Positions 55,152 through 57,945 of a DNA stretch of 64,000 nucleotides are shown piece after piece. The position numbers were made by a program, and so were the translations under genes. Every line of letters starts with the position of its first letter. Position 1 is the first letter of the stretch. Origin of the DNA: Nitrososphaeraceae archaeon (GTDB lineage Archaea > Thermoproteota > Nitrososphaeria > Nitrososphaerales > Nitrososphaeraceae). The DNA lies in the NCBI GenBank assembly GCA_031316115.1, contig JALDRC010000006.1:1-64000 (forward strand). The letters run 5' to 3'. The notes beneath the pieces were generated by a model. It was not told the DNA's origin and did no database searches. It worked only from the letters and a program-made list of their open reading frames with translations.

Positions 55152-55163
55152 TTGAAAAATAGC

Positions 55164-55562
55164 ATGATAAAATTTTCTAGAAAGGAAAATCAGTTTTTAC
55201 AGGAAAATGAAGTTTGTAGAATTGCTACAGTATTCAGGGATATGCCTCATGTTGTTCCCATATGTTATATTTATTTGAATAATTCCCTCTACTTCGCCAC
55301 AGATTATAATACTAAAAAATACAATAACATCTTACATAATAATCACATTTCTATAATTGTTGATGTATATGATACAATAGAGGGAAACAAGGCCGTTCTT
55401 ATCGATGGACTTGCTTATATTATCGAAGACGGGGAAGAATTTAAACAAATTTATTCTTTATTTGAAAAAAAATTCAAGTGGGTAAGAGATGATCCTTGGA
55501 AGGAAGGAGAAGCTCCTTTTATAAAAGTAGTAATAAACAAAAAGGTTAGTTGGGGTTTATAG
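55164..55562 (+). CDS. pyridoxamine 5'-phosphate oxidase-like FMN/F420-binding split-barrel protein
   Basis: This 132-residue split-barrel protein opens FSRKENQFLQENEVCRIATV, then PHVVPICYIYLNNSLYFATD and NNHISIIVDVYD. These are the strands of the PNPOx/FDOR group, which bind FMN or F420 and reduce small molecules. KKYNNI after the flavin strand fits the phosphate-binding Lys. The archaeal context makes F420 as likely as FMN. The start was chosen from the TATA spacing. Confidence 0.85.
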   Translation: MIKFSRKENQFLQENEVCRIATVFRDMPHVVPICYIYLNNSLYFATDYNTKKYNNILHNNHISIIVDVYDTIEGNKAVLIDGLAYIIEDGEEFKQIYSLFEKKFKWVRDDPWKEGEAPFIKVVINKKVSWGL

Positions 55563-55761
55563 ACACTATTGTTATTAATTCTTATACATTTTAATAAAGA
55601 GGTAAACAAAATATATAGTATAGAAACAATTTTTCCTGGCGATAAAATATTTAAAGTTATTTGGAACTATATAGAATATGTAGTATAAATCTGACTATAT
55701 TATCAACATGATCTATGATAATAAATTTAAAATAATTAAAAATATATTTAATTACTGATTG

Positions 55762-55857
55762 ATGAAAAAGAAAAATATAGAAGACTTGTATAATGACGAT
55801 GATGAGGTAATTGATCAAGTATGTTTACGATACCCCAAATCAAAGTCATCTAGTTAA
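55762..55857 (+). CDS. possible 31-residue peptide
   Basis: An ATG-started frame encodes a basic start, an acidic middle (EDLYNDDDEVIDQ), one Cys and a Lys/Ser tail ending KSKSSS. A TATA-like stretch is 16-32 nt upstream. Length gives weak support. It lies between a flavoprotein and a radical SAM gene, where a small modified peptide could be encoded, but nothing else argues for that. Confidence 0.25.
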   Translation: MKKKNIEDLYNDDDEVIDQVCLRYPKSKSSS

Positions 55858-55882
55858 TTTTTCAACATTTTCTATTATGATA

Positions 55883-55902
55883 ATTTTTCGGCGCCGAAAA
55901 AT
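55883..55902. repeat. 20-bp perfect palindrome with GC core
   Basis: ATTTTTCGGCGCCGAAAAAT reads the same on both strands. The CGGCGCCG centre stands out in AT-rich surroundings. It could be an operator for a dimeric regulator. No U-run follows on either strand, so it is not a typical terminator. Confidence 0.6.
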
Positions 55903-55969
55903 AAAGATTCGTCCTTGACTGTCTTCCGATGATGAATATTATTATATAATATTACTTTGAAAGATTGTC

Positions 55970-56064
55970 GGGACATATTCTCAATCCCACCCAGTCTGTG
56001 ATTTACATCCCAGCCGAGTCATCACAATGAGATAGGTCATGTGTTTACTCATGACCTATCTCAT
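55970..56064 (+). ncRNA. candidate structured small RNA
   Basis: A segment unusually GC-rich for the window has three nested-free stems in a row: GGGA 55970-55973 with TCCC 55985-55988, TGTGAT 55997-56002 with ATCACA 56021-56026, and a perfect 15-bp stem 56027-56041 with 56050-56064 around an 8-nt loop. TTATATAATA at 55942-55951 lies about 25 nt before 55970, so transcription could start at the first stem. No known RNA family fits and no long frame is open. The 15-bp hairpin could instead serve as an end signal for the convergent radical SAM gene, but no U-run follows it. Confidence 0.3.
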
Positions 56065-56149
56065 AATAATAAAATTAGTTTATTTATAAAAATAAGATTT
56101 GTTACAATTAAGTTAACTATTTAAAAGCTATTTTATTCGAGTCATCAAA

Positions 56150-57217
56150 TCATAAAGCTTGTTGTTTCTCTTGATTGATGAGATTGGATATTCCTCTCAA
56201 ATAGTTCTTTGCAAAGGTCGTGGTAGGTTGTGATGAATACCAAATGCATCCCAATACCTTACAATCCTTACATGTTCTTGCAATATCCCATTGAGGAGCC
56301 TGCCATACTTCTTCTATATTTTTTTCTAGTAAATTATAGACATTTTCAGGAGAGTTATATTTCCAGCACGGGACCAGAACTGTACCATTTGCATTAATAA
56401 ATACACTTTTCCAAACTCCACATTCATCATACAAGCCTCTACCGTGTTGTATTATTTGTTGAAAATATTCAATTGGTATCATAATTTTAGGAGTAGTATG
56501 TCTCTTATTGTAATCAATGATACTTTCGCATATCGAAATCATAGTTTTTCTATCTGGTAATAAAGAATAGTTTACATCTGATCTATCTTCTACAAATGTA
56601 AGGGAAACAGCATTAGATCCCAATTCTTTTGCTTTTTCAAAATATGATTGATTAATGAATTCTTCAGTATTGTATTTAGTAATTACTGAATTAAAATAAT
56701 GTGGTATATTATTTTCTTTGAGTAGAAGAAGATTTTCTAATATACGTCTAAAAACATTATTTGGAACACCTCTTATTTTACAATAAGATTGCTCGTACAC
56801 AGAATCTATGCTGCAGGTAATAAATTGAACATATTTCTTTAATTCAATTAAATCTATATTGTGTAACAGGGAACAATTTGTGATTAGAGTTACAGGCATG
56901 TTTAATTTATTTAGATAATGAATCAATTCCATGAAATCAGGTCTGGAAGTAGGTTCTCCACCCTCGATAATTGACCATATACAATATTTTGAAACCTTAT
57001 CAAAAATTAACTTCCACTGCTCTGTGGTCAAGTCATTATTCCTTGCCATATTAAGTTGTCCAATTTTATCAGAATCCCCAAATGGACACATGGGACAATA
57101 AAAATTACAATAATGTGTCAAACTGAAGACAGCTATCAGAGGACGTTTTTTCCCCAAAAGTCTCTTCGATGACCATTTTCCTAATAGCTTTATCGTTCTG
57201 ATAGTATCAATTCCCAT
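56150..57217 (-). CDS. radical SAM/SPASM-domain protein
   Basis: This 355-residue enzyme has the AdoMet [4Fe-4S] motif C37-x3-C41-x2-C44 (THYCNFYCPMCPFGD), the GGEP motif (EGGEPTSRPD) and the radical SAM barrel to about 230. A C-terminal SPASM-like region has Cys in DECGVW, VLVPCWKY, TCKDCKVLGC. SPASM enzymes modify peptides, proteins or small molecules with a second Fe-S cluster. The substrate is unknown and no obvious precursor peptide is adjacent, apart from the weak 31-codon frame. Confidence 0.92.
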   Translation of the reverse strand: MGIDTIRTIKLLGKWSSKRLLGKKRPLIAVFSLTHYCNFYCPMCPFGDSDKIGQLNMARNNDLTTEQWKLIFDKVSKYCIWSIIEGGEPTSRPDFMELIHYLNKLNMPVTLITNCSLLHNIDLIELKKYVQFITCSIDSVYEQSYCKIRGVPNNVFRRILENLLLLKENNIPHYFNSVITKYNTEEFINQSYFEKAKELGSNAVSLTFVEDRSDVNYSLLPDRKTMISICESIIDYNKRHTTPKIMIPIEYFQQIIQHGRGLYDECGVWKSVFINANGTVLVPCWKYNSPENVYNLLEKNIEEVWQAPQWDIARTCKDCKVLGCIWYSSQPTTTFAKNYLRGISNLINQEKQQAL

Positions 57218-57369: not shown

Positions 57370-57945
57370 ATGGTAATATTTTTTAAAAAATCTGATTTTA
57401 AAAAATATTTGTTTAGTATACCTTTTGTTATTTTCTGTTTGACGTTATTAATTAACCAACCAATATCGTTCAATTCTATATTAGGTCAGATGCATGGAGG
57501 TCATGATTTACCACCATCAGCTATTGGAGATCGGGAAGTTTTTTTAAAATTTGATGCTCCTACATTCAAAACAACAGAAAGAGGAAAATTAAGTCTAGCA
57601 CTAATAGACAATAAAACAGCAGAGAATATTCCTCATGTCACTTTTATAATAAGCATACATAATGAAACCAATAAGGCATTACTCACAGAAAATTTTCATG
57701 GACATAAAGGGGATATCAATTTAGAGTTTATTAACAGTAATTTAACAAAATATAGAATTAACGCAAATTATGATACATTAGCAGCCAGTTATGTTTCTGA
57801 TTTTGGAAGTCCAATTAAAATTGATGGTCCAATCTTTAGTAATAGTGGAGAATATAAAATTATAGCTGAAATTACAGGCATAGATTATGATAATACATTT
57901 TTACCATCGCCGTTGAAGTATGAATATATAATAACCGTTAAATAG
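57370..57945 (+). CDS. secreted small beta-sandwich protein
   Basis: This 191-residue protein has a signal anchor (about 14-35) followed by a His/Gly stretch (GQMHGGHDLPPS) and one Ig-like beta-sandwich: LSLALIDNKT, HVTFIISIHNETNKALLTEN, YKIIAEITGIDYDNT. The mature start with M-H-G-G-H could bind copper or another metal; that is inference. Similar in style to the ectodomain at 49327. Function unknown. Confidence 0.75.
   Translation: MVIFFKKSDFKKYLFSIPFVIFCLTLLINQPISFNSILGQMHGGHDLPPSAIGDREVFLKFDAPTFKTTERGKLSLALIDNKTAENIPHVTFIISIHNETNKALLTENFHGHKGDINLEFINSNLTKYRINANYDTLAASYVSDFGSPIKIDGPIFSNSGEYKIIAEITGIDYDNTFLPSPLKYEYIITVK

Follow-up and report, generated by a model that had tools for sequence, protein, structure and literature searches.

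A candidate small-RNA gene between a flavoprotein gene and a radical SAM gene in a Nitrososphaeraceae archaeon

The window analysed here is a 64,000-nt stretch of a Nitrososphaeraceae genome (assembly GCA_031316115.1, contig JALDRC010000006.1, positions 1 to 64,000 of the forward strand), in which an initial annotation had marked a candidate structured RNA at 55942-56064. The features of the locus are summarized in Table 1. The element is flanked by a PPOX-class flavoprotein gene and a convergent radical SAM/SPASM gene, neither of which is part of the RNA. A PPOX-like protein is also encoded beside the RNA in L011, L016 and L025, and the radical SAM gene was found in 50 of the 70 genomes of the family at E ≤ 1e-30. 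In addition, positions 57370-57945 of the window encode a 191-aa protein without Pfam or NCBIfam match, which is kept beside the locus in TH5894 and BD_FP_2. A 31-aa open reading frame at 55762 was considered as a substrate peptide of the radical SAM protein and rejected; among the loci compared, its only real match was in its own locus (next best E 0.65). No open frame had been reported over the element itself, and the list of open reading frames (length cut-off 40 aa) indeed holds none of at least 40 aa over 55942-56064. The GC content reaches 41% at 55950-56049, compared with 15-34% in the remaining windows from 55550 to 56149, so that the GC-rich island described initially stands out from the intergenic background but not from nearby coding windows, which reach 40%. 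In searches with Rfam 15, no family reached its gathering score anywhere in the window. Seventeen sub-threshold matches up to E 10 fell in 55860-56100, the best of them, MIR405, falling on the terminal hairpin with 30.4 bits where 102 are needed, and no match at E ≤ 0.1 was obtained in the seven loci with the window RNA (RNA1), the RNA2 family or the palindrome described below. Readings as a tRNA, a tmRNA or an Rfam RNA were rejected, as none was found.

Table 1. Features of the locus around the candidate small RNA (window coordinates).
Feature	Position	Strand	Basis or remark
PPOX-class flavoprotein gene (upstream neighbour)	55152-55562	+	Open reading frame and family search
Palindrome ATTTTTCGGCGCCGAAAAAT, candidate operator upstream of the RNA promoter	55883-55902	.	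GGCGCC in 4/6 RNA copies
TATA box TTATATAA	55942-55949	+	65 nt before core in 5/6 copies
Predicted small RNA, about 95-100 nt	55970-56066	+	Ends predicted from the TATA spacing (5′) and the hairpin (3′); fold, promoter spacing, covariance model, conservation
Possible short 5′ stem GGGA/UCCC	55970-55988	+	Window fold; relatives by hand drawing
Core motif ATCCCAGCCGAGTCATCAC	56007-56025	+	17/19 positions invariant in 6/6 copies
Terminal hairpin, 15 bp, 8-nt loop	56027-56064	+	Fold, window scan, covariation
Radical SAM/SPASM gene (convergent neighbour)	56150-57217	−	Open reading frame and family search

The minimum free energy (MFE) fold of 55942-56064 (-37.0 kcal/mol) contains three successive stem-loops, and none of 200 shuffled sequences was as stable (mean -21.6, sd 3.1; z = -4.99). 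The three stems of the initial annotation are thus found in the window, but the first two are not conserved as drawn, the folds of the relatives being different. With a start near 55970, moreover, the outer strand of the first stem as drawn there (55962-55967) lies outside the RNA. A counterpart of the possible short 5′ stem, GGGG/CCUC, could be drawn manually in three of the relatives (two of these are contigs from a single genome), and in the remaining two it is weak or missing; the relatives' own MFE folds differ from the hand-drawn pairing. The last stem had been described as a perfect one of 15 bp, and exactly this was found. When the whole 64-kb window was scanned for perfect arms of at least 12 with loops of 3-12 nt, two hairpins were obtained, of which only this one has a 15-bp arm; the other (arm 14) is AT-only but for one base. 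None of 20 sequences simulated from the window by a first-order Markov model had an arm of 15.

The core (ATCCCAGCCRAGTCATCAC), searched with 0-1 mismatches, occurs at six places in four of the six genomes of the genus. The other 64 genomes of the family yielded three two-mismatch matches only, which were rejected as RNA copies based on folds unlike that of the RNA. A covariance model, R1, was built from the six copies (alignment A3) and then searched in the family genomes. It gave six strong matches (84-104 bits, E 1.2e-25 to 8.9e-20) in four of the six genus genomes, these being the same six from which the model was built. The remainder at E ≤ 0.1 comprised 20 matches of at most 27 bits, touching nine genomes of other genera. 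None of those inspected was accepted as a copy: five of the 20 are the hairpin of the RNA itself on the opposite strand, and 12 of the remaining 15 were inspected, 11 of them having at least five mismatches to the core; the twelfth, L142, is the two-mismatch core match in G011. Neither the core search nor R1 found a copy in G003 (92% complete) or G004 (77%). In G003 (L043 from 2560), the radical SAM gene and the first 3′ flanking bases match those of L006 and L007, after which the sequence departs. The absence of the RNA from G003 may reflect loss, gain elsewhere or rearrangement. An exact-match search of the GTDB collection returned six stretches, about four being expected by chance according to our own estimate; two are bacterial, and four belong to three Nitrososphaerales genomes, TH5894 (twice), TH1177 and BD_FP_2_bin.31.

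The initial annotation had pointed to the genus Nitrosocosmicus. This assignment was not upheld: the RNA-bearing congeners are TH5894, TH1177 and BD_FP_2_bin.31, and TH5894 is carried as unclassified Nitrososphaerales in the NCBI taxonomy. In passages of PMC7603488, TH1173 is the one MAG among its 12 that is called closely related to Nitrosocosmicus oleophilus, with TH1177 and TH5894 listed among the others. The genus of the window genome is thus probably not Nitrosocosmicus.

A TATA box had been placed at 55942-55951, and TTATATAA is present at the first eight of these positions; the box takes the form TTTAAATA in three of the other copies and CTTAAATA in one. The distance from the start of the TATA box to the core is exactly 65 nt in five of the six copies, and for the copy in G002 neither a TATA box nor the palindrome was found. 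The usual archaeal spacing between TATA box and start puts the 5′ end of the RNA at about 55970, in agreement with the start suggested initially, and the fixed distance to the core fits as well. Five of the copies thus have their own promoter at the distance expected of an independent archaeal small-RNA gene. The palindrome beside the RNA contains GGCGCC in four copies and a degenerate GGCTCC in the fifth, and the sixth is without it.

In alignment A3, pairing in the terminal hairpin amounts to 97.1% over the six copies, compared with 23-48% when it was slid by 1-3 columns as a control. Compensatory changes in relatives, whose absence had been named beforehand as speaking against the element, are present here: three pairs are changed on both sides, with A-U/G-C at two and C-G/U-A at one. 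In shuffled alignments the covariation score was reached by 1/500, and the number of doubly changed pairs by 48/500. We regard the covariation of the hairpin as modest, because the copies are few and related (effective number 1.9, with one genome contributing two contigs). Conserved secondary structure was found for the terminal hairpin alone. The single-copy folds agree on this hairpin only, while the 5′ part varies from copy to copy. In L011 and L007 most of the core is unpaired; in the window, L016 and L006 part of it is paired. RNAalifold recovered no more than a partial consensus from the six copies. U-rich plus-strand sequence follows the hairpin on its 3′ side in L037, L041, L038 and L040; the window itself has no U-tract at this place.

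TH5894 and BD_FP_2 share the gene order PPOX, RNA, a region with no long open frame, and a gene of the 57370 type. Between contig C76 of TH5894 and BD_FP_2, the stretch from the TATA box to the end of the hairpin is identical at 107/122 positions (88%), against 206/325 (63%) in the left intergenic DNA and 376/541 (70%) from the hairpin to the next gene (Fisher P = 1.5e-6 for the RNA stretch against the two non-coding stretches together, the region bounds having been set after the identity profile had been seen). The corresponding values are 367/420 (87%) for PPOX and 435/481 (90%) for the 57370-type protein, and the RNA stretch thus evolves like the proteins and unlike its non-coding neighbours. 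On a second TH5894 contig, C181 (L103 6483-7155), the RNA lies beside a remnant of the radical SAM gene with many stops and about 30% identity to the window protein (tblastn E 6e-11). About 515 bp of the remnant are missing from C76, and the best remnant matches in BD_FP_2 and C76 are 22 and 32 residues long (E 0.013 and 0.054, respectively). Judging from the single contig C181 and the DNA alignment, the RNA seems to have been retained beside a decayed radical SAM gene, and to be independent of an intact one next to it.

The description as a candidate structured RNA is strengthened by the fixed TATA-to-core distance in five of six copies, the compensatory changes in the terminal hairpin and the retention against drifting flanks. 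We judge 55942-56064 to be probably a genuine, non-coding small-RNA gene, because close relatives have preserved its promoter, core and final hairpin although the surrounding DNA drifted. The promoter spacing, the conserved core, the covarying terminal hairpin and the retention amid drifting surroundings are seen in the sequence itself. Together they make it reasonably likely that the locus is an independent plus-strand small-RNA gene with its own TATA promoter, a conserved core and a 3′ hairpin.

Alternatively, the hairpin could belong to the 3′ UTR of the minus-strand radical SAM gene, stabilising or terminating its mRNA, with the plus-strand TATA box serving something else or nothing. In G000, L006 and L007 the element does lie 3′ of a radical SAM gene, and in C181 it lies 3′ of the recognisable remnant. 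We nevertheless consider a 3′ UTR unlikely, as the element is kept beside a remnant with stops, its conservation runs through the core to the plus-strand TATA box at a fixed distance, and the core was found in none of the 29 other radical SAM 3′ flanks of the family that were examined (L042-L070). Its position between convergent genes and its perfect hairpin would also suit a terminator common to both genes, with the TATA box arising by chance; a terminator, however, needs neither a conserved core outside the hairpin nor a TATA box at a fixed distance, and appears quite improbable. The inverted repeat, and the two copies in different surroundings in bin G005, might recall the remnant of a repeat or mobile element, which is very improbable given that G000 and G002 have a single copy each and that the two TH5894 copies have common surroundings, 96-98% identical. 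Finally, a minus-strand C/D-box guide RNA, suggested by the C box GUGAUGA in the complement of the core (RTGATGA on the minus strand in all six copies), can be dismissed, since the C box is on the minus strand only, the D box is absent in all six copies (no CTGA on either strand over 85 nt minus and 100 nt plus), and no Rfam family reaches its threshold.

For the independent small-RNA gene that we favour, transcription from the TATA promoter at 55942 would begin near 55970 and yield an RNA of about 95 nt. The RNA would carry the conserved C-rich core AUCCCAGCCRAGUCAUCAC, presumably as its working part, and would end in the stable terminal hairpin, which could protect the 3′ end or help to form it. 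The upstream palindrome may be the operator of the RNA gene. Action would be expected in trans, via base-pairing of the core or protein binding at the core, and not on the convergent radical SAM gene. From sequence we infer that the element is transcribed, where its transcript starts and ends, and what its function and target may be; a trans-acting regulatory role is put forward on the same footing, and membership among the trans-acting antisense RNAs is not claimed. When sites complementary to the core were sought in the six genus genomes (17-mer, up to 3 mismatches), 23 were obtained beyond the RNA itself, against 22 with the reversed control; there being no excess, no extended target is visible. 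One two-mismatch complementary site, common to G001 and G003, lies in a frame that is open over the 46 codons examined.

Archaeal intergenic small RNAs are short, have their own promoter and contain stem-loops, features in which the window RNA resembles them. Examples are sRNA162, sRNA154 and sRNA41 of Methanosarcina mazei and sRNA132 of Haloferax volcanii. These belong to other lineages and are likened here by general features, the window RNA being known from sequence alone. Judged by titles and the opening lines of abstracts, no paper found was on regulatory RNAs of ammonia-oxidising archaea, and the portions of literature searched contained nothing on the window RNA itself. Its defined promoter, core and hairpin open the RNA to direct testing. 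Given the palindrome and the RNA2 family linked to it, a wider layer of RNA regulation may be worth looking for in these nitrifiers.

The palindrome, TTTTTCGGCGCCGAAAAAT, is dispersed in all six genomes of the genus and is a candidate operator of a putative regulator. Allowing up to 3 mismatches, matches per strand pair in the six genomes were 12/15, 16/14, 9/9, 24/25, 10/10 and 19/18, and a reversed-pattern control gave 0-1 per strand and genome. The inner 14 bases were not found in the literature text searched. The window genome has sites at 55883-55902 of the window and on contigs C2, C5, C12, C14, C15, C16 and C18. Three of its sites other than that at 55883-55902 follow the end of a member of a second multicopy structured RNA family at a distance of 28-41 nt. 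This family, RNA2, has a TATA box and a covarying hairpin and is present in all six genus genomes, with copies at L149 1501-1588, L156 1501-1582 and L161 1501-1584 in the window genome and ten more in G001-G005. The model R2 was built from the three copies of the window genome, which it thus finds by construction. Of its 17 matches 13 were aligned (A7). The four left out were L163, which lacks the motif, L164, which scored 25.6 bits, L160, which lies on the strand opposite L152, and L155, which comes from outside the genus. In the 13 aligned copies all 124 of 124 hairpin cells are paired and two pairs are changed on both sides; in shuffles, the number of doubly changed pairs was reached by 96/500 and the covariation score by 1/500. 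The loop contains UCUGAGCCAU in seven and AGCCA in ten of the 13 copies, and with a permissive pattern an intact or degenerate palindrome is found 26-41 nt downstream in 11. Two RNA2 copies of the window genome precede similar proteins; the remaining neighbours vary by copy, which speaks for separate small RNAs.

RNA2 and the window RNA are alike in having a TATA box, a hairpin, AGCC in the loop and the same palindrome nearby, and the RNA2 loop resembles the core of the window RNA. Membership of the window RNA in RNA2 was nevertheless not supported, as R2 misses it; with filters switched off, the best match anywhere in the five loci of the window RNA had E 0.85. It is conceivable, though we think it doubtful, that both belong to a single small-RNA regulon, specific to this genus of soil ammonia-oxidising archaea, in which the TTTTTCGGCGCCGAAAAAT operator and an AGCC loop binding a common partner form the link. 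Downstream of palindromes in the window genome, three similar proteins, putative class III nucleotide cyclases, are encoded at L100, L107 and L115, two of them beginning with MIY.SSK..RFI.
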